This document shows, in pieces, positions 986-29,592 of a stretch of 31,222 nucleotides of DNA. Origin of the DNA: Plicaturopsis crispa FD-325 SS-3 (Eukaryota; Basidiomycota; Agaricomycetes; Amylocorticiales; Amylocorticiaceae); NCBI GenBank assembly GCA_000827205.1, contig KN832563.1, positions 508,677-539,898 on the forward strand, in the 5' to 3' direction. The position numbers and the translations under genes are program-made. The notes beneath the pieces were generated by a model that saw only the letters and a program-made list of their open reading frames with translations, was not told the DNA's origin and did no database searches. Position 1 is the first letter of the stretch. The number at the start of each line of letters is the position of its first letter.

Positions 986-3895
986 ATGGTCACTGTCGCC
1001 GCTAAGAGTGGCGCGAAACGATGGACGACGTCCGACGAGCTCGCATTCCTTGTAGAGAGGAAAGAGGAATATATCAAGCATCGAGAGGGTGACAAGCGCT
1101 ACACGAATTTTTGGCCCACCTTGGATGCGGACTGGTTTGCACAGTTTTCAGAGCGAGAGAGGCTTTTCCCAGGTCAATCCGAGCGACTGCTGGATAAGCA
1201 GGAGAGCCTCCTCCTCTCGACGGATATAGACAAACGCCGTAAGGTCGGTTATTCCGTACTTATGTTCTCGGCATGATATTGATACGTGGCTTTCATTAAT
1301 AATAGCAACTTCGTACCTGGTACCGAAACAATGTCAAAACCTCCGTGCGAGAGCGGAAAACAGTAGCCAAGGCCACCATACTCGAGAATATCACAAAGTC
1401 GACCAGAAAAAGGCACCTTCAACCCGTAGAGGTGTTCATGTTGCTGCATTACGAGGATATGATTCGGCACCTAGTTCGTGAAGCGATAGAGAACGCGACA
1501 CCAAAGATGGACAAAAAGCAAATTATGGCGACCATCAAGCAGATTGCTACAAACGTGTTCGAAGTGCAGGGTGAAGAGATTCACGCGGAAGTTAAGGAGA
1601 AGATGGAGGAACTGAGAAAGCCAGGCGCCCCACTGAGCGAGGAACAGTCGCCGGAGGACTACCAGCGGTAAGCCTCTAAACCTTTACATAACTCGGATCG
1701 AAACTAAATCTCAAGATTTCGGCAACAGAGCGATTGACGGCATGAAAGACATCCTTGCGGTGATTCTCGGCGAGATTGCTCGGACCACCGGCTGGAAGTT
1801 TGCCCTCTACTGCGGTGGGCCAATGCCCATGAACGGAGGGAAACTCAGCTTTCAATCGTGCGTCCCGTATTTTGCCCATGCTCATCACCGTCTGACAGTA
1901 TATTCAGCTTACAATACGGAACTTCCGAGCTAGGACATGATTTCTCAGAGGCGAACTGCGTCTTCCACGACAAGATGATGTCTCGCTTTGGGAAATGGCT
2001 CGCCACCGCAATTCGTCAGTGCCCATTCTGTCGTATTCACCGTTAGCATCGTCGCTGACCAGCAGGATAGCTGACTCTGTCTGCAAATCACGAGCCTTAC
2101 GGCCGGACGCACCCGCTATGGCGCCAGGAGACATGGATTCCCTGGTTGCTCTTGAAGATAGCTTCTCTGCAGCCGGCGGCGAAATGGAGGATGTTACGAG
2201 CTCTCCCATGCCGACAGACGACGACACCCAGCCCAGCACCAGCACCTCCTTCGCTCAGCCCCCCGTCGCTAAGGCTCCCGTCGCTCAGCCCCCCGTTACT
2301 CAGCCCCTCGTCGCTCAGCCTCCCGTCAATCAGCCCCTCGTCGCTCAGCCTCCCATCGACGATCAGAGCCCCGTCAACGATCAGTACCCCGCCGACAAGC
2401 AGGCTACAGAGGCGTTCTCATCATTCGCCGAGGACCTCAAGGGAGACGCCTTCACTTTCCCACTGTTCAACGGCGACCTCGACAGTGAGATCTCTGCCTT
2501 CGACCCGTTTGCCGGCCTAGATGGCCCAGCGCTGTCGACAGACGACTCTTCATTTGACATGATGGAAGGCCTGGATGCGTACAATGATTTCGCTATGAAT
2601 GACCTCGCCATGCGGAGTACGATGGCGGGTTCAAGCGATGATCTTAGCTGGATGGACGACACCGGGGATTTCCTAAGCATGCTGGGGCTGTCACCCAAAA
2701 GTTCTGACCTTGGCCTCCACGCGGCCCCTAGCTCTGACCCAGTCGTTAACGCGCCTGCGGCTCCAGTCGTGTCTGCAGCGCCAATCTCACCTGTAGCAGC
2801 ATCTTCTATCGTCGCTAAAGTCCCCGCAGTCGTCCGTCCTCCCGCAGTGACGTCTCATGCAGAATCAGCGACCGCGACAACTGCCATGATGGCGCACCTG
2901 ATGTGTCCACCTCCTCCACCTCCTCCCGTACTTCGCCCTATCCAACCCGAACCGACCACTGATCGTACGGCTGCACAGACACCCCTTGGCATGCGCCTCG
3001 CCCGTCTTCGCAAACCATTTGAAGAATCTCTTCCTATCGTCAAAGACGTCGTTGATCCTGGCGCGGAAGGTCGCGGAGGGGCAGCTGTAGCCACAATCCC
3101 GCCGACAATCTCGCCAACAATCCCGCCGACAATCCCGCCGACAAGCTCGCCGACATCTCCGGGACGTGTGATGGGCACCGTAGGGGAGAAGCCAGAGTGG
3201 TTCTCCCTCGCTCTTTCTCATATACGCGATGACACGCTGGGAGCTGACTGGTCAAAGGCGGTTGGTCTCTGGGAAGTGATGGAGAGCGCGCTGAACTACG
3301 GGGATAACAAACACAAGGTACGTACCGCCTATACTCCGGCGCAACGTTCTCGAATTAATAAAGGTGGGGTCGTGAACAGAGTGCTCTCCGCCCCAAGGAT
3401 CGCCCCGCTCTCTTGAGCGCATGGGTGACCAAACGGCGCAACTACGGGAAGATCCCTGCTGTCGATGACCGTTCTGCTTACGGGATGGCTTGTCGAAAGT
3501 GGTGGCACACCATCCAGCCCGTTTGGCGCCAGGGTGAAGACAGGCTCCCGCCTGCAATCTACGTCACCGACAGTGAAGAGGGCTGGAGTACTCTCCGCGT
3601 CGGTGGCCAGAATGGGTTCGTCCTGGTAATGATCGCCTTCGCATGGCTAGGGCGTCTAGGTTGCGACGACGTGTGGCTTGCACTGACAAAAGACTTGTGC
3701 TGCTGCTTGGAGAGGATGGCATACTCGCAAAAGCGGAGCGGCGCGGCTGATATAGAGAAACCAGCGACGTCGCGCTCGAAGGGAGCGTCGAAGGGAAAAG
3801 CCAAGTCGACGGCCGTCGACGTCGAGTCCTCGAAGGCTACCGATCCTCTTGCTGGGGATCTCACGAACATCATTACCACCACGCGAAAGAGGTAA
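986..3895 (+). CDS. Hypothetical protein of an expanded Agaricomycete family (homeodomain-like N-terminal part, Trp-rich C-terminal domain)
   Basis: Six exons give 872 codons in frame: 986-1243, 1306-1667, 1729-1857, 1908-2014, 2071-3317 and 3380-3895. The N-terminal part has a TNFWPTLDADWFAQF segment (~residues 41-55) followed by KRRKQLRTWYRNN at the exon 1-2 junction (~82-94), which looks like the recognition helix of a homeodomain-type fold. Next come a basic helical segment and a GWKFALYCGGPMPMNGG motif (~230), then a FGKWLATA motif. Exon 5 is a long disordered, Pro/Gln/Val-rich region with degenerate PVAQP repeats (2250-2370) and PTIPPT repeats (3100-3160). The last exon is ordered: KDRPALLSAWVTKRRNYGK, then WWHTIQPVWR and GGQNGFVLVMIAFAWLG. 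From memory, this order of motifs marks a large hypothetical family in mushroom genomes; no function is established for it. Intron 1 uses a weak GTCGGT donor, chosen because it alone joins KRRK to QLRTWY. The CDS could continue past 3895 if the GTAAGC overlapping the stop is a donor. Confidence 0.7.
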
Positions 3896-4359: not shown

Positions 4360-5052
4360 GTGATGTATCAACCGTGCAGGATTTGAGACGGCTATGTGAT
4401 ACATCAGGTTAGCTAACACCCTGAAAAAGTGCACGGTCGGTAACATGATACATCAAACGATTGGATGGCAAGAGGAAGGAGAGGGAAAGGCCAATGGTAG
4501 CGTAATGCACCGAAATACATTGAAATCGGGAGCGAGAGCGTCCAAAGTGCTAGGGAGTCGGTAACATGATACATGAACGATTCGACGGGAAGGGGAAGGG
4601 GAGCTCGAGGGGAGGAGCCAATCGGTAACATGATACATCAAACGATTCGACGGGAAGGGGAAGGGGAGGGGAGGAGCCAATGGTAGTGTGATGCACCGAA
4701 ATATGCTGCAATCGCGAGGAGGTGGGAGCGGCATAGGGCGTCGGTAATTTGATGCAACAATTCGAGGGGCAGCAAGGATCAGTGATCACACGCGGGTGGG
4801 TAATCTGATGCATGGATTAATTTCCGGTGCAACGCCGGATCGTACTGGCGACGATAAAGTCATGTATTCAACGGCCACGATGATTGCAGTGGATACTGAA
4901 TCAAATGCGGAAGGGTAACCTGATGCATGGATTAATTTCCGGGGCCACGACGGATCGTAGGGGCGTCGCTAAAGGGATGCATTCAACAACAACGATGATT
5001 GGAGTGGATGGTGCATCACCATGTGTAGGTAGGACAATACAATGATACATCA
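4360..5052. repeat. Degenerate tandem array with TGATRCAT-headed units
   Basis: The word TGATRCATC or a close variant recurs at about 4361, 4397, 4446, 4567, 4631, 4689, 4750, 4806, 4921 and 5043. From 4440 on, units begin with GTAAxxTGATRCAT. Units at 4440-4559 and 4624-4742 (about 120 bp) share most of their length, including an internal ATGCACCGAAATAY block; a shorter copy (4560-4623) sits between them. Units at 4800-4915 and 4916-5032 (about 117 bp) match each other through GATGCATGGATTAATTTCCG and a later CAACGATGATT-type block. The copies are diverged, so this is an old minisatellite or satellite. The several short ORFs across it on the - strand are frame echoes of the repeat and are not genes. 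Confidence 0.8.
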
Positions 5053-22915: not shown

Positions 22916-24424
22916 CTACTTGCGCCTTCTATTTATCATGTCTGTGGCGCATTTCCTGCCGCTCCTGCTCCTCGCCCCTCCATTTGCTTCTAGGCGTTTG
23001 AAGGGCACAGCACCTTTCTTCCGGTGTGCAGCCTGAGGCAACCGTTTGCGGTATCGCGTCACACCGTGCTCCGCCAGGACGACATCGTCACAGTATTCTA
23101 TACGCAGCGGGAAGTACCACCCTTTGCCTCCAGGTGCAGGTAGGACGAGTTCGACATCGGGTGCGCGCGTGGGTACCACTGGCCGCTTGTGGTACGCGCG
23201 GTGCTTGGCATACGTGAACGGTGTGATGTGTGTCGTGGGCGGGAATTCCTTCTCGATCCTGTCGAGCTCCCTCATCCACGCACTGTCGAGCACGCGCGAC
23301 CGGCGCGTCTCGCGGCGGTAGGTGTGGTCATTCATCCAGCGCTTATTGGCGGAGTGGATCCGCGCGCAGATCTCGGGAGTCTGAGCGGACGTGTAGAGGG
23401 ACCGCCGGTCGGTGATAGCGCGGAGGCGCGTGCGGCGCGCACTTGCGAGGGATTTCTTGGCGGCAGAGAGGACTGGCCAGGGCGGGGCAGGCTTTGGGGA
23501 CGCCGTGGGCATTGGGCAGGCAGACGAGATCGAGGGCCGTACGCTGGAGCCGATGGACGATGCCGCGGTGTCGATGGATGCACGAGGGGTCCAGGTGCCG
23601 CCGAAGGCCGACGTGTGCGTCCCATCGGACGAGTGGGTGGTGTCCGTGGCAAAGGACGCACGAGGTCCAGATGCCACCGCTCGCGCGATCGAAGCAGCCA
23701 GGTTCTCCGCTAGCATACGCTGGTCCTCCAGTCTCATCTCCTCTACTACACTCTTGTGCCTAAAATAAGGCAGCTCGGGTACCCGTTCGGCGGGGGTCGC
23801 ATCGGCTAGTACTGGTGCAGTGGCGCGTGCTGGGTTATATGGCCGATTCCATACGGTGGCATCTTCAGCGACGTCCTCGTCAGGGAATACAGGTTCTCGC
23901 ACGCGGTCCCCGAACACGTCCTTCCAATTTTTATTGAGCCTCTTGGGATTGAACTGCCGCCCACCATCTGGCCTTGGCAGGGGTTCCATATTGGAGTCGA
24001 GAGGAATGAGCTCGCCAAACTCATCTCGCGGCATGTCGTACCGTTCAAGGCCTCTGTGATAGGTGACTTGGGGGATCGGGAGAAACTCGGCAAGATCTGG
24101 CATTTTGCGTATTATGATCTTGGGCTCTGGCTCTGGCTCGGGTGTGCGAAAGGAGAGCTTTGAGAAAACAGAGGATAAGGAAGGGCGTTTGGCGCGGGGT
24201 GTCTCAGATGATTCTGGGTTGCGTCCAGAAAGGGAACGGCGTAAGCGAGCGTAGAGGGAATTAGGCTGGGGACGGGGCTTTGGCATAGTGACATAGTTAT
24301 TGGGTGCGGCAGGGATGCGATCGAATGCTGATTGGGAAAGAGAGAATACGTTGATAGGTTGTTGTTCAGGTTCTGGTTTAGAAAGTGGTGAGACCGGTCT
24401 CGAGTGTTGGGAAGGAGAAGGCAT
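22916..24424 (-). CDS. Uncharacterised intronless basic protein, member 1 of a three-gene cluster
   Basis: A single exon of 502 aa; I do not recognise it. The N-terminal 100 residues are Pro/Ser/Arg-rich with a LYARLRRSLSGR segment. A central part (DAPRDEFGELIPLDSN-like stretch near residue 135, then KRLNKNWKDVFGDRVREP near 160) looks structured. A Ser-rich part contains PRASIDTAASS and KKSLASARRTRLR, which resemble RASLDTAATDS and ISLASARRRSRSS in the + strand gene at 27778. The C-terminal third has conserved-looking aromatic and basic segments (HITPFTYAKHRAYHKRPVV, GKGWYFPLRIEYCDD) and ends very basic. No signal peptide or membrane segment. A TATA-like word (GGTATAAAAC on -, 24488-24497) lies 64 bp upstream, and the cluster promoter word lies at 24586-24598. 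Relationship to the other two genes is tentative. Confidence 0.7.
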   Translation of the reverse strand: MPSPSQHSRPVSPLSKPEPEQQPINVFSLSQSAFDRIPAAPNNYVTMPKPRPQPNSLYARLRRSLSGRNPESSETPRAKRPSLSSVFSKLSFRTPEPEPEPKIIIRKMPDLAEFLPIPQVTYHRGLERYDMPRDEFGELIPLDSNMEPLPRPDGGRQFNPKRLNKNWKDVFGDRVREPVFPDEDVAEDATVWNRPYNPARATAPVLADATPAERVPELPYFRHKSVVEEMRLEDQRMLAENLAASIARAVASGPRASFATDTTHSSDGTHTSAFGGTWTPRASIDTAASSIGSSVRPSISSACPMPTASPKPAPPWPVLSAAKKSLASARRTRLRAITDRRSLYTSAQTPEICARIHSANKRWMNDHTYRRETRRSRVLDSAWMRELDRIEKEFPPTTHITPFTYAKHRAYHKRPVVPTRAPDVELVLPAPGGKGWYFPLRIEYCDDVVLAEHGVTRYRKRLPQAAHRKKGAVPFKRLEANGGARSRSGRKCATDMINRRRK

Positions 24425-24585
24425 GTTGGTAGTTTGTTGTTGTTCAGGTGGAGGAAGAGAGGAGACCGTTCTCGAGTGCGCACCAATGTTTTATACCCCA
24501 GGGCGTGCGGATGTAAATCTGCGAGTATATGCGACAACATATTGTTTTCTGTATAGTTCTGTGGTCCATTATAAAACGACGTTCC

Positions 24586-24612
24586 GAGACAATTTCCGAG
24601 GATCAATTTCCG
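24586..24612 (-). promoter_or_regulatory. Cluster promoter element, two CGGAAATT copies
   Basis: On the - strand CGGAAATTGTCTC (24598-24586) is preceded by a second CGGAAATT (24612-24605). They sit 162-188 bp upstream of the gene starting at 24424, with a TATA word between. The 13-mer recurs exactly upstream of the gene at 27778. Confidence 0.6.
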
Positions 24613-24856
24613 ACTTTGCTTCCGCTATGCTGTGCAATGACATCAGAAGTGCTGCGTCCCAGGAAGCTCTGGCGGATTCTCATAGGGGCGGCTGACGCTT
24701 TCATATACAGCTCCGTCTGGCGTGCAAGTCCGTCATAAGAGAGTCCTGAGACAATATGAATCGTTTTTAGAATTGAGCGTGTAGTACAACAAAACAACAT
24801 ACGGTATATCCTTGTAATAGCGTGGCAAAAGCGGATAATACCACATCGTATACAGC

Positions 24857-26320
24857 CTAGGTCTCATAGGTGAATCCCGCGTCCCACATTTTGAGATACC
24901 ACGCATCGAGCCTATCGTCTTCATTGCTCAGTGAGACTTCGCGCATTTTGCTCCAGCGGTACCCCAGACCGGCACCAGCCACTCTCCACTCCATCGGCGG
25001 TGGGCCGCGCATCCCTGGGACGAAAGGCGTTTCCTGCTCGTCTCGCCACAGGACGTACTTCCAGAAAAAGTTCTCCTTGCGCTGCGGAGCGTCGGCATCT
25101 GAACCAGACGTGGCCGAGGGAGTCTCGCTGGTGGTGTCTGATTCGGCGGAGGTGCGGTGAGATTGACAACTCGGGACACGAGCGTGCAACTCCGGGTGAT
25201 AGTCGGCGGCAAGCGCGGCGAGTTGGCCGTCAAAGTCGGTACCACAATCGTACTGCTCCCAGGACGGAGGCCCAGTCCTAGCAGTCGGCCCCTGAGCCTT
25301 GACTGCAGGGACAGTGTTGCCTTGTGCCTTTTCACTGACATGAGAGTCCACCTTAGGGGGAGCGAAAGCTGGGGCGCCGTGTTTTGCTTCCTTCTTTGCA
25401 GTGTAGCGCAGGTACGCAGCCTGTCTGGCGAGCGTCGCCTTGTCCTTGGTGTTAATCCCAACGCGCTGCATCGGATGCCGTGACCCCCGCGCGACCTCCA
25501 ACGCCACGAGCCCCTCATGCGCCGCCTCGCCCAGATCGACCGCCTCAAAGTCGGGCAGCGACGCGGGCGGGCGCGCCATGAGCGCACGCACGGCCCGCAC
25601 GACGTCGGCGTGCACGTCCTCCACGTATGCGTGGTGCTGCTTCTCGTCGTCCGCGCAGCCGGATGCCTCGGCTGTGATGGTGTCTGTGAGCTCGTGCCCC
25701 TGCCGCGTGCGGTACACGCTCGTGCGCGCGAGAGACACAAGCGCCCAGCGCGCGCGTGGGTTGCGGCGGCTGTATACGGCGCGCATGCGGTCGGCGACCC
25801 ATGCGTCGCGCGGATCGGAGCCTGGGCGTGGGCGTGCTGCGGCTGTGGACACGGAGAGGGTGTAGATGGCGCGCGGGACGTCGGCGAAGGTCACCTCGGG
25901 GCGCGCGTCGTGTGCGAGGGCGAGGTGCACGGTCGAGAGCCCAGGTGCAAGCGCACAGAAGTGTGCGAGGAAGAGCGGGAGATCTTGGGTATGTATCCGA
26001 GAAGATTTGTCGGCGAGGATGGTGAGAGAGTGGAGCGTGGGGTCTACGAGAGTTGTGCGGGCTTCGAGAGCAATCATTTCTGTGTATCGGACGTGGAGAT
26101 GAGAGGCGGTAGGCGGCTCGAGGACAAGATCTGAGTCAGGCCTGGAGGGCCTGCCCTCCACGTCAAAAAGAGAACGTAAACACGCGGTCATCGGTTTGGG
26201 TATAACTTGGAAGCTTGGGATTCTCAGTTTGAGAGGCCGTTGCTCACGGCGCCGTGCAAGCTTTAATCGGCGCTCGTAGTCGATGCTGACAAGTTGCAGG
26301 GGAGATATGGAGGTCGACAT
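24857..26320 (-). CDS. Uncharacterised intronless protein, member 2 of the cluster; paralogue of the gene at 27778 without its F-box-like part
   Basis: A single exon; the start at 26320 (MSTSIS) is preferred over an in-frame ATG at 26344 because its following SIDYERRLKLAR aligns with SIDYARRLEDAR of the paralogue at 27778. Length is 487 aa. A core from ~residue 75 to 270 aligns along its whole length: HVRYTEMIALE with HVPYADMVAFE, DLPLFLAHF with DLAPFLAHF, TLSVS with TLSVA, ARWALVSLARTSVYRTRQGHE with GRWALVYAARRSTFRTERGHE, and YVEDVHADVVRAVRALMARPP with YVDDLHKDVFAAVRAYMARPP. Near the C-terminus GLGYRWSKMREVS matches GRGFRWVKSRSVW. The F-box-like block of the paralogue is absent, replaced by about 40 unrelated residues. 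The last 60 residues (FFWKYVLWRDEQETPF onward) are unique. Function unknown. Confidence 0.75.
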   Translation of the reverse strand: MSTSISPLQLVSIDYERRLKLARRREQRPLKLRIPSFQVIPKPMTACLRSLFDVEGRPSRPDSDLVLEPPTASHLHVRYTEMIALEARTTLVDPTLHSLTILADKSSRIHTQDLPLFLAHFCALAPGLSTVHLALAHDARPEVTFADVPRAIYTLSVSTAAARPRPGSDPRDAWVADRMRAVYSRRNPRARWALVSLARTSVYRTRQGHELTDTITAEASGCADDEKQHHAYVEDVHADVVRAVRALMARPPASLPDFEAVDLGEAAHEGLVALEVARGSRHPMQRVGINTKDKATLARQAAYLRYTAKKEAKHGAPAFAPPKVDSHVSEKAQGNTVPAVKAQGPTARTGPPSWEQYDCGTDFDGQLAALAADYHPELHARVPSCQSHRTSAESDTTSETPSATSGSDADAPQRKENFFWKYVLWRDEQETPFVPGMRGPPPMEWRVAGAGLGYRWSKMREVSLSNEDDRLDAWYLKMWDAGFTYET

Positions 26321-26430
26321 AGTGGTTATGAGTGGGAAGTTCATAAAATGTGCGCACCTAGTACATGTTATAGTCAGAGATCGTCAGGTCCATTCAGGGA
26401 GGGATCGGAGACTGCGGGTGTCTCGAATTT

Positions 26431-26443
26431 GAGACAAGTCCCG
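26431..26443 (-). promoter_or_regulatory. Cluster promoter element, variant copy
   Basis: On the - strand CGGGACTTGTCTC lies 111 bp upstream of the start at 26320. It differs from the copies at the two other cluster genes (CGGAAATTGTCTC) at two of 13 positions. A second GTCTC-type half (GAGAC, - strand) sits just downstream, making a loose GTCTC...GAGAC dyad. Confidence 0.45.
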
Positions 26444-26479
26444 AAACCGTTTGGAGGAGTATTCGGCCCCAATGGCCCA

Positions 26480-27587
26480 AACCAAAATGTTTAGGTACAC
26501 CTTAAGAAATGCGTCTGGGAAAGCAAATTCGCTAGCCTTACACGCTTCAAGACTGGTAGCTGATTGAACGAGCGCGTCTACACGAGAGTCAAAAGTATAC
26601 GCAGTGAGGAGGGAAGATGCTCTGTTTGAAGACTGATATGTGCATACCTGCTGGGCCTTCTGAGGCCATTACCGATAACCCTCCACCATGCTATTCCTAG
26701 CTGTCACAGCTGATACAACTTGGATAGTTACCGGCCGCAAAAGCCCTCGCAGGACTTGCTGAACCGAGCAAAATGGGCGTGCACAGACTGCACGGCTGTA
26801 TCTGGTTACGAAGCCTGGAGAGAGTCGTCACGAAGACGCTGCAACGAGAAACCAGACGGCGAGAGAAGACATAGGCCAAGCATAGCAGTGTAGCAGAAAG
26901 AAGAAGGAAGATAGACGGAGCATAGGAAGTACAAACGAGTACAACAATGAAAATTGGTTGGGAAACCGGGCGAGTCAGACGAGAGTCGGTGAGGAGAAGA
27001 AATGGGTACCAGGGGTCCGAGTTATCAGAGTTTGGGGTCTGTCATGACGGAGTGCTCGCGCCGCTGGCGGGGGTTTTTCAACTTGCTTCTAGTTTTGGAC
27101 TCTCTTCAATCGCACTGCGTAGTTTCAATTCCTGTCTAACTAGACTAACAGAGTACCTCTTGGATGATGACTACACATCAAAGTCTCAGCCCTATATGCA
27201 CAAGGCGCGAAAGGAATCGCTGAGTCGTCTCTGCCTGAGCTAGCCGGCGAGCAAAAACAGGCTCAGGCCTCCGCCTCAGGGGGCAAGCCTTGGGAACTAC
27301 GCGTCGAAAATGTATTGGAACCACCGCAGTGTACTCCTAGACGAGGGTACCGATTAGGTATGCTGCTGTGTCTCACTACGCAGTGCCAGGATATAGGAGG
27401 ACTGCGGCACCATTTCAATCTTGACCAGATCGTCGCCGCCTGCTTCCGAGCCTGCATGCATTGGTCTCAATCCCACATATGCAGGTACGCAAATCGATTC
27501 TACTCAATGTATTGGATCTCTTGAACTCAAGTCGCTCAAGTCGATTCATGTAGTTAACTAACTGTATCGTTGCTGTCGAAACGTGCG
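26480..27587. other. Long intergenic region, no gene seen
   Basis: About 1.1 kb between the divergent cluster genes. The open frames are short, have no domain, and no tRNA or mobile element end could be recognised. A purine-rich patch runs from about 26880 to 26930. The region next to 27588 leads into the promoter of the + strand gene. Confidence 0.5.
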
Positions 27588-27661
27588 CGGAAATTACGAT
27601 GTCGGGAATTATTTTGTATCGAGTAAGTTTCGGGAATTAAAACAGTATCGGAAATTGTCTC
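27588..27661 (+). promoter_or_regulatory. Cluster promoter element, four CGGRAATT copies
   Basis: CGGAAATT at 27588-27595, CGGGAATT at 27603-27610 and 27631-27638, and CGGAAATTGTCTC at 27649-27661, all in the same orientation. The last is identical to the 13-mer upstream of the gene at 24424. A TATAAG word follows at 27711-27716, about 65 bp before the start codon. This looks like a repeated activator site plus TATA box. Confidence 0.6.
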
Positions 27662-27777
27662 ACCGTGTACATATAGCGATTTGCATCCGCTGCGTCTAAT
27701 TGGATCGAGCTATAAGATGGTCGCTTGCCCCTTACTGGCCTTCTTCCCAAACTACCACAAACCACAACCCACCCGCC

Positions 27778-29592
27778 ATGTCATCTCTACCCACTTTCGT
27801 GGCCCCTCCATCTCCTGACAGTATCGACTACGCACGCCGTCTTGAGGACGCACGCGCACAAGAGGTTGCCCCAGTCCCACCCACCCTGCGCCAGCGTCTG
27901 CGACGCACGCTCCGAAACATCCCCCGGTCCATAGCATCGATACCCCGGCCCACAAAGCTATCAAAATCTGCCCCTATCATACCCGCCACCCTCCCCCAGC
28001 TCCCGCTCACCATCGTTGCCCGCATCCTCGAAGAAGCGTGGTCGACGCCCCTGACGCACGCCGAGCGGGGGCAGCTCGTGTCCTCGAGCCGGCTAGTCAG
28101 CAAGCCGTGGGCGGCGCAGTTCCGGGATATCAGCACGCGGCACGCACACGTCCCCTATGCCGACATGGTCGCCTTCGAAACCCACGCCGCGCGCTGCGCC
28201 CGCGGCGAGTGCCCTTCCACCTACCCGCTCAGCACCACCACAGCCGGGCGCGGGCCCATGCGCACTCTCACCCTCGAGCTCGACGCGCACACCCCGCGCG
28301 CCAAGCCCGGCGACCTCGCGCCCTTCCTCGCCCACTTCGCGCACGCCGGCCACGCGCCGGACCTGCACACGCTGTTCGTGACGGCGGAGGGCGACGGCGC
28401 GCGGCCGGTGCTAGCGCTCGCGCAGGTGCCGCCGCAGGTGCACACGCTGAGCGTCGCGCTGGTGCCGCCCGCCCGGCGGCCGTGGACGGAGGACACGATG
28501 TGCGTCGCGTGGAGCCGTGCGAATGCGCGTGGGCGCTGGGCGCTCGTGTACGCTGCGCGCCGCAGCACGTTCCGCACCGAGCGCGGGCACGAGGTGCTCG
28601 ACGCCGCCGTTGCCCGCGCCGCCACCACCGACGATAACGAAGACGTGGAGTATGTGGATGATTTGCACAAAGACGTGTTCGCGGCGGTGCGCGCGTACAT
28701 GGCGCGGCCGCCGCGCGCGCAGGACCGGGGGACGCTGCGGGGCGCGGACGACCCGGCGGATATGTCGATGGGCGCGGCACTGCAGGCGGGGCTGTTTGCG
28801 GTCGCGGTGCAGTCAGCCGCGGAGAAGGAGGCTGCGGCGATTCGGTTTGCGCGGCCGCGTGCGGCGTCTGCGCCGAGGCCTATGGCCTTTAAGCCGATAG
28901 CCAGTGCGACAGCTTCGTCCTCGCGTGCTTCAATGCAATTGCCTACGCCCCCGTCAGCTTACACGGCTCCTCCCTCTGCGTACACCACCCCCTCCGCGTC
29001 TGCCCCCGCACCAGCGCTCAACGCGCAGGACGTCCCCACCTTCCTCGACAACGAGATCTCCCTCGCATCCGCGCGCCGCCGCAGCCGGTCGTCCACCGCC
29101 ACGAGCTACCTCTCGTCCATATTCAGCAAGCGCATGTCTGTGGACCACGGTGCGCGTGGGTCTATGGACATTGGTGCGCGTGCATCTCTAGACACTGCTG
29201 CGACAGACTCCCCCCGACCTTCGATTGACGTGTTGAGTGGGAGCTCCCCGATAGACGTCAAGAGTACACCGATGGACATCAAGAGCTCGCCGCTCGCCAT
29301 CGACAGCACGACGTCCGTCAAAGTCCTCGGCAAGCAGCGCGCCGCGTCCGAGTCCGCCGCTCCTCGTAAAGAGACCACGCCGCCACCAGTCAGCGCCGCT
29401 ATGAAAGAGGCACAGGCAGCAGCCCTCAGCCGCGCGTTCTTCGGCGAGATGACCGCCCCGCAGACGCACCATGCGCGCGCGCCGACCCCGAAGGCGTCGG
29501 ACGAGCACGGGGTGGGGCGTGGGTTTAGGTGGGTGAAGAGTCGGAGTGTGTGGAAGATTAGTACGGGTGGGGGTGGTGGGAGTTATTGGTGA
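27778..29592 (+). CDS. Uncharacterised F-box-like intronless protein, member 3 of the cluster
   Basis: A single exon of 604 aa from ATG 27778; the open frame runs further 5' but has no ATG and overlaps the TATA word. Residues ~72-117 (LPQLPLTIVARILEEAWSTP, then RLVSKPWAAQFRDIS) have the pattern of a fungal F-box: LP-hydrophobic-Ile-Leu, then a V-S-K-x-W close. The core from ~125 to 330 aligns throughout with the - strand gene at 24857 (see that entry for matching segments). From ~365 onward the protein is Ser/Ala/Pro-rich, with degenerate SAYTAPPSAYTTPSA and RxSMDIGARASLDT repeats and DIKSxP repeats, and is likely disordered. The end GRGFRWVKSRSVWKIS is shared with the paralogue. If the F-box is real, it may act as an SCF adaptor; no substrate-binding domain is recognised. 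Strong GC bias in the middle produces long antisense frames that are not genes. Confidence 0.75.
   Translation: MSSLPTFVAPPSPDSIDYARRLEDARAQEVAPVPPTLRQRLRRTLRNIPRSIASIPRPTKLSKSAPIIPATLPQLPLTIVARILEEAWSTPLTHAERGQLVSSSRLVSKPWAAQFRDISTRHAHVPYADMVAFETHAARCARGECPSTYPLSTTTAGRGPMRTLTLELDAHTPRAKPGDLAPFLAHFAHAGHAPDLHTLFVTAEGDGARPVLALAQVPPQVHTLSVALVPPARRPWTEDTMCVAWSRANARGRWALVYAARRSTFRTERGHEVLDAAVARAATTDDNEDVEYVDDLHKDVFAAVRAYMARPPRAQDRGTLRGADDPADMSMGAALQAGLFAVAVQSAAEKEAAAIRFARPRAASAPRPMAFKPIASATASSSRASMQLPTPPSAYTAPPSAYTTPSASAPAPALNAQDVPTFLDNEISLASARRRSRSSTATSYLSSIFSKRMSVDHGARGSMDIGARASLDTAATDSPRPSIDVLSGSSPIDVKSTPMDIKSSPLAIDSTTSVKVLGKQRAASESAAPRKETTPPPVSAAMKEAQAAALSRAFFGEMTAPQTHHARAPTPKASDEHGVGRGFRWVKSRSVWKISTGGGGGSYW

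Follow-up and report, generated by a model that had tools for sequence, protein, structure and literature searches.

Neighbouring intronless genes in Plicaturopsis crispa share rare promoter words that suggest a common regulator

The window, by which we mean the whole 31,222-nucleotide stretch of DNA that was analysed, contains three neighbouring genes that a first-pass annotation had described as single-exon and had treated as one family. Each of the three is indeed one open frame from ATG to stop, and their intronless status is read from these open frames only rather than from RNA.

22916..24424, minus strand: g1, intronless ORF of 502 amino acids; an orphan, for which a genome search returned g1 alone
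24857..26320, minus strand: g2, intronless ORF of 487 amino acids from this ATG; paralogous to g3, with much of the F-box-like region missing
27778..29592, plus strand: g3, intronless ORF of 604 amino acids; its family has at least six members in the genome; F-box-like on weak evidence

An additional in-frame ATG for g2 is present at 26344. The g2 and g3 proteins are paralogues (34% identical) and four further paralogues lie elsewhere in the genome (pA, pB, pC and pD); pA, pB and pC are each a single long open frame, and the frame of pD is shorter, with 244 codons. No Pfam family was matched by the g1, g2 or g3 proteins. The implied single family did not survive protein comparison: BLASTP of g1 against g2 and g3 gave short stretches (E 0.039 and 0.29), hhalign gave a probability of 0.3%, and g1 found itself only in the genome, so no homology of g1 to the other two was found and, as judged from these comparisons, its protein is unrelated to theirs.

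The annotation had also reported an oriented 13-base word upstream of each start, and the words were found at the positions that it gave. In the window CGGRAMTTGTCTC occurs exactly three times (24598-24586, 26443-26431 and 27649-27661), each time oriented towards its gene, and the mean in 100 shuffles of the window was 0.01 occurrences. These words lie among the following promoter features.

24605..24612, minus strand: g1 site 1, CGGAAATT (-188), 14 bp upstream of site 2 on the same strand
24586..24598, minus strand: g1 site 2, CGGAAATTGTCTC (-174)
24507..24519, minus strand: GATTTACATCCGC upstream of g1 (-95)
24491..24495, minus strand: TATAA of g1 (-71)
24476..24483, minus strand: GTGCGCAC of g1 (-59), directly after the TATA box; present in g2 too
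26431..26443, minus strand: single g2 site, CGGGACTTGTCTC (-123)
26419..26436, no strand assigned: inverted repeat TGTCTC N6 GAGACA, which overlaps the g2 site
26368..26372, minus strand: TATAA of g2 (-52)
26350..26357, minus strand: GTGCGCAC of g2 (-37)
27588..27595, plus strand: g3 site 1, CGGAAATT (-190)
27603..27610, plus strand: g3 site 2, CGGGAATT (-175)
27631..27638, plus strand: g3 site 3, CGGGAATT (-147)
27649..27661, plus strand: g3 site 4, CGGAAATTGTCTC (-129)
27678..27690, plus strand: GATTTGCATCCGC upstream of g3 (-100)
27711..27715, plus strand: TATAA of g3 (-67)

A scan of the genome showed that the 13-mer is not common in promoters, with five matches in 33.2 Mb. Three of these are upstream of g1, g2 and g3 and the other two lie within open frames, so that the only upstream copies are those of the three genes. 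Matches to CGGAAATTGTCTC with up to three mismatches numbered 11 in the window against 8.2 expected, a count near enough to expectation that only the close copies are informative.

The 13-mer turned out to be the 3' unit of an array on the same strand, with two copies of CGGRAATT ahead of g1 and four ahead of g3. All seven sites start with CGG in the same orientation, which is weak as a test since the scan pattern required CGG. The distance from the start of one CGG to the next is irregular (14 bp in g1; 15, 28 and 18 bp in g3), and the fixed spacing expected of a dimer site was seen in neither g1 nor g3; monomer binding would need no fixed triplet spacing. Tandem TCGGRAATT pairs (gap 0-30) were found three times genome-wide, all at this locus, against about 0.09 expected by arithmetic from the 447 single copies, and the reversed-pattern control gave none. 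Pairs of the shorter CGGRAATT occupy 14 places in the genome, four of them at this locus; among the other ten, five are copies of two repeats, three make up an inverted cluster on C7, and the remaining two are unique. Long frames on C2 and C3 follow the two unique pairs, which means that the locus does not have the core pair entirely to itself. Three matches, in L030, L039 and L040, were considered as tRNA genes and rejected, as ARAGORN (bacterial code) reported none there and the three are one repeat.

Closer to the start codons, GATTTRCATCCGC has four copies genome-wide, two of which lie before g1 and g3; no CGGRAMTT was found within 1.5 kb of the other two. The array, GATTTRCATCCGC and the TATA box stand in identical order in the g1 and g3 promoters. 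At g2, the inverted repeat that overlaps the single site is of a form (TGTCTC/GAGACA, gap 4-8) with no occurrence in 228,966 strand-bases of background. Genome-wide, the 13-mer, the TCGGRAATT pairs and GATTTRCATCCGC are concentrated on the genes of the candidate cluster; the looser core has 4 of its 14 pair places there. The expected concentration on the gene family was not borne out: none of the four paralogues elsewhere has the array upstream, two (pA and pB) are without a core and two (pC and pD) have one isolated core each. As a grouping of three promoters the proposal holds strongly for g1 and g3, and g2, with one diverged word, is a weak member. The promoter-word observation is confirmed, in a stronger form than first described, and its interpretation as a co-regulated cluster is partly supported.

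With gap-tolerant scoring, the similarity of the g1 and g3 promoters was equalled by none of 300 shuffles and none of 1798 background segments (score 38.6; the best background segment reached 37.8 against g1 and 33.5 against g3). With stricter scoring one shuffle in 300 did as well, and so did 11 of the 1798 background segments when compared with g1 and 1 of 1798 when compared with g3; the three best background segments against g1 overlap at one locus on C3, and this segment (L049) was inspected and is not the module. Under the stricter scoring the g1 promoter was almost as similar to that of pC (27.0 against 28.0; 4 of 300 shuffles). The g1-g2 similarity was not above chance, either with shuffles or with background segments. 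As the g1 and g3 proteins are unrelated, the likeness of their promoters comes without a visibly duplicated gene.

The annotation had likened the CGG start to sites of Zn2Cys6 factors, a reasonable suggestion given the direct-repeat CGG half-sites, the published AmyR site CGGAAATTTAA and the 29 Zn_clus matches above cut-off in the genome; none of the matches listed falls in the window. The Aspergillus Zn2Cys6 factor AmyR binds CGGAAATTTAA (PMC5468973), with a site form CGGN8(C/A)GG (PMC5468973, PMC12941744), so that it resembles the sites here in having the CGGAAATT core, in promoters, with a second triplet closely downstream. It differs in having 8 bases between triplets, where neighbouring CGG triplets here are separated by 11 to 25, and in serving ascomycete amylase genes, whereas no known carbohydrate genes are among the targets here. 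Similarly, the drug-responsive element of the Candida albicans Zn2Cys6 factor Tac1 has directly repeated CGG triplets in promoters that contain a TATA box (PMC10370356), but in that element (CGGATATCGG) the triplets are 7 bp apart rather than 14-28 bp and the targets are unrelated. In an unrestricted literature text search, the string TCGGAAATT also turned up in published papers.

Locally clustered fungal genes can be under the control of a cluster-specific regulator. The present locus resembles such clusters in that neighbouring genes, some of them unrelated, have rare upstream sites in common, and differs from them in that none of the listed Zn_clus matches lies in the window and the g1, g2 and g3 proteins have no Pfam match. 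The presence of shared rare words before neighbouring genes, two of them mutually unrelated, suggests that one regulator may switch the genes on together. We slightly favour a shared cis-regulatory module, strongly developed in g1 and g3 and weakly in g2, in which a Zn2Cys6 activator would act on the CGG half-sites and a second factor on GATTTRCATCCGC. Direct observation covers the words, the order in which they stand and the finding that the rest of the genome is nearly devoid of them: same-strand CGGRAATT half-sites 120-190 bp before the ATG, the final one extended to CGGAAATTGTCTC, then GATTTRCATCCGC at about 95-100 bp and a TATA box at about 70 bp. A sequence-specific activator, most likely of the Zn2Cys6 class, would bind the repeated half-sites of this near-private module, and together with the factor bound at GATTTRCATCCGC would bring g1 and g3 under regulated transcription; g2, with its one diverged site, would respond less. 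Such a module is an ordinary kind of system, the twist being one promoter design in two unrelated genes.

The same module could be read by a factor of another class that recognises CGGRAATT or TTGTCTC, a possibility that we consider unlikely but credible. The CGG-CGG spacing is not rigid, the shared sequence continues across AATT and TTGTCTC, and at g2 the inverted repeat overlaps the site; against this, published Zn2Cys6 sites have the same core or directly repeated CGG (PMC5468973, PMC10370356). It is less likely that the promoters of g1, g2 and g3 descend from one ancestor, by duplication or promoter capture, and that the words are functionless chance survivors. In the gapped alignment the g1 and g3 promoters are collinear as far as the 5'UTR, and g2 and g3 are paralogues, as such descent would have it, but with g2 and g3 only 34% identical, and the g3 promoter finding itself only when searched as DNA, unconstrained words should have vanished. 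The g1 and g3 arrays also differ in site number and spacing and so are not a simple copied block.

That the words arose by chance is very improbable. The degenerate pattern was indeed picked post hoc, after the three promoters had been viewed, and when g1 and g3 are taken alone, their 14 identical bases are matched or exceeded in 10 of 20000 random pairs of segments. However, in a post-hoc control 3000 random triples were taken from 454 promoter-like segments of 260 bp and none shared a 13-mer as well (summed mismatches 2 observed, 3 in the best random triple), and the tandem TCGGRAATT pairs and GATTTRCATCCGC, which lay outside the original claim, are so rare genome-wide that a chance origin is largely refuted. 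The idea that the words came with a mobile element or dispersed repeat inserted into the promoters is scarcely credible: two repeats do hold five of the ten other CGGRAATT pairs, but the promoters are alike in short words only, and for the g3 promoter, which is single-copy by DNA search, the idea is refuted.

A bolder extension of the favoured module, which we regard as speculative and on balance doubtful, would make it a private regulatory code: the array and partner site would be used essentially only here, the orphan g1 would have come or arisen under the promoter design of the F-box-like g3, and the two proteins would be made together and might pair. If the shared module is borne out, the locus would be a small, clean test case for the spread of a promoter design to an unrelated neighbour and for an orphan gene gaining regulation; if the words are relics only, it would be a case of ordinary promoter descent. 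A module that is borne out would also make positions 27580-27700 a defined bait with which to find the regulator of a gene family not yet characterised.

There is weak evidence that g3, and perhaps also g2, encodes an F-box-like protein, so that the locus may bring a ubiquitination substrate adaptor and an orphan protein under a common signal. The likeness consists of a weak match to PF12937 in one of five family members (E 0.0048) and of helices in the F-box-like region of AlphaFold models for g3 and pB, which are of low confidence (mean pLDDT 47.6 and 47.4); unlike F-box-like proteins, g3 itself has no Pfam match and g2 lacks much of the region. Foldseek with the low-confidence g3 model gave no match at E <= 0.001, and PDB sequence searches gave one chance-level match each (E 1 and 2.6). 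The g2/g3 family is not described in the accessible portions of the literature on F-box genes in Agaricomycetes and Polyporales, including PMC8893723. For g1, codon statistics gave two antisense frames that outscored its own frame.

The first-pass annotation had described three single-exon genes sharing a 13-base promoter word, with a likeness held unlikely to be fortuitous. An uninterrupted frame from ATG to stop was found for all three, and CGGRAMTTGTCTC has exactly three matches in the window, at the positions and orientations claimed, where shuffles give an expectation of 0.01. Promoter positions below are relative to ATG.

24424-22916, minus strand: g1; CGGAAATT at -188 and -174, both toward the gene; GATTTRCATCCGC at -95; TATAA at -71, with GTGCGCAC downstream
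26320-24857, minus strand: g2; single site CGGGACTT at -123, without further copies; TATAA at -52, with GTGCGCAC downstream
27778-29592, plus strand: g3; CGGRAATT at -190, -175, -147 and -129; GATTTRCATCCGC at -100; TATAA at -67

Because the pattern had been chosen post hoc, random triples were drawn from 454 promoter-like 260-bp genome segments, both strands included. None of 3000 matched as well (3 summed mismatches in the best random triple versus 2 for g1, g2 and g3), and a 14-base identical stretch such as that in g1 and g3 was reached in 10 of 20000 random segment pairs. A chance origin of the words is thus very unlikely, as had been proposed. The 13-mer occurs at five places in the genome (33.2 Mb on 49 contigs, the window being C10:508677-539898), and the two outside the window lie within open frames, on contig C6 encoding GDGNCL in what we take to be an OTU-type protease and on C7 encoding TEIVS near the start of a presumably dynamin-like frame. 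The gene-upstream copies are therefore those at g1, g2 and g3, and the word is not common in unrelated promoters, upstream status being judged hit by hit for the hits discussed here.

The 13-mer proved to be the final unit of a same-strand array. TCGGRAATT has 447 copies genome-wide (240 + 207), a density at which about 0.09 pairs (same strand, gap 0-30) would be expected; the three that were found are confined to the promoters of g1 and g3, and a reversed-pattern control gave none genome-wide. GATTTRCATCCGC has four genomic copies, two of them in these same promoters, and no CGGRAMTT was found within 1.5 kb of the other two. Pairs of the looser core CGGRAATT occur at 14 places, four of them at this locus. 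Elsewhere, two lie within one 376-bp repeat (copies 87% identical), three in an inverted cluster on C7, and three within a 420-439 bp repeat on C5, C19 and C25 (L030, L039, L040; 98.6-99.3% identical) that has internal short repeats and a tRNA-like stretch in which ARAGORN finds no tRNA. The remaining two are unique and precede long open frames: one (C2:3506841, L028) lies 120 bp upstream of the ATG of a presumed FAD oxidoreductase, in the same orientation and abutting CGGAAATTCGGAAATT, and the other (C3:347702, L029) about 134 bp upstream of an ATG, in opposite orientation. These may be further targets of the same control, so that the core pair by itself is not entirely confined to this locus; this slightly lowers the odds that array and partner site form a code near-exclusive to this locus, placing the orphan g1 under the promoter design of the putatively F-box-like g3, a reading we consider improbable. 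The inverted arrangement CGGRAATT/AATTYCCG occurs at a single place genome-wide, on C6. Overlapping the g2 site is an inverted repeat, TGTCTC N6 GAGACA (26419-26436), which with gaps of 4-8 was absent from 228,966 strand-bases of background.

At the protein level g2 is a paralogue of g3 (34% identity, alignment A1), and their family has further members pA (C10:992947), pB (C10:994672), pC (C10:765380) and pD (C21:146212). That the word follows this family held only in part: CGGRAMTT is absent within 400 bp of pA and pB, and occurs once at pC (-40, opposite strand) and once at pD (-212, right orientation), without an array. Against a background of 17 in 288,968 strand-bases, a set that takes in pC and both outside 13-mer loci, two of four outside paralogues is above expectation yet far short of an array; the module of CGGRAATT sites, GATTTRCATCCGC and TATA box is a property of the locus more than of the family. 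A Pfam search matched none of g1, g2 and g3; one of five aligned family members gave a weak F-box-like match (E 0.0048), and structure models were of low confidence. g1 matched only itself in the genome, showed no relation to the g2/g3 family, and is outscored in codon statistics by two antisense frames; its status as a putative gene rests on a 502-codon open frame and the promoter. On C28 (99000-107000, L017), fragments at 3812-3854, 4415-4477 and 4509-4564, opposite strand, are 43-63 bp long and 79-84% identical to the g3 coding sequence; they are a decayed partial g3 copy.

Whole promoters were compared under a gap-tolerant and a stricter scoring, with 1798 background segments (overlapping, both strands included). 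The gap-tolerant g1-g3 score of 38.6 was reached by 0/300 shuffles and no background segment, the margin being slim on the g1 side (best 37.8, from a C3 segment in which the module is absent). The stricter score of 28, the 14-base word itself, was reached by 1/300 shuffles and matched by 11 segments against g1 and one against g3; g1 against the pC promoter scored 27 (4/300 shuffles). The g2-g3 score was reached by 1/300 shuffles in the gap-tolerant and 3/300 in the strict scoring, the corresponding segment counts being 5 and 4, then 10 and 4; g1-g2 showed no excess over shuffles or background. The strong evidence is therefore the genome-wide rarity of the words, not overall alignability.

The g3 promoter, the one promoter used as a DNA query, matched only itself, which excludes its membership of a dispersed repeat. 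It is possible that the words are relics of promoter descent; g2 and g3 proteins have diverged down to 34% identity, however, and site number and spacing are unlike between g1 and g3, which favours maintained sites over a copied block. At window positions 4826 and 4941 (minus strand), two CGGAAATTAATCCATG copies 115 bp apart resemble the core of a C1/C19 repeat, the C1 copy of which gave no BLAST match to the window.

The words, their order and their rarity are observed; one activator would bind the sites. All sites start with CGG, which the scan pattern required. The Zn2Cys6 factor AmyR binds CGGAAATTTAA in amylase promoters (PMC5468973; table row in PMC12941744) and the Tac1 element carries CGG triplets as a direct repeat (PMC10370356); the array resembles these in its CGG-starting core and directly repeated CGG, respectively. 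By this analogy a Zn2Cys6 factor is likely, while the irregular spacings (14, 15, 28 and 18 bp) speak against a dimer site of fixed geometry. Zn_clus has at least 29 matches genome-wide, and not one of those listed lies in the window. Four fall within about 570 bp at C10:809015-809583, some 269 kb past the window end, and look like zinc clusters arranged in tandem.
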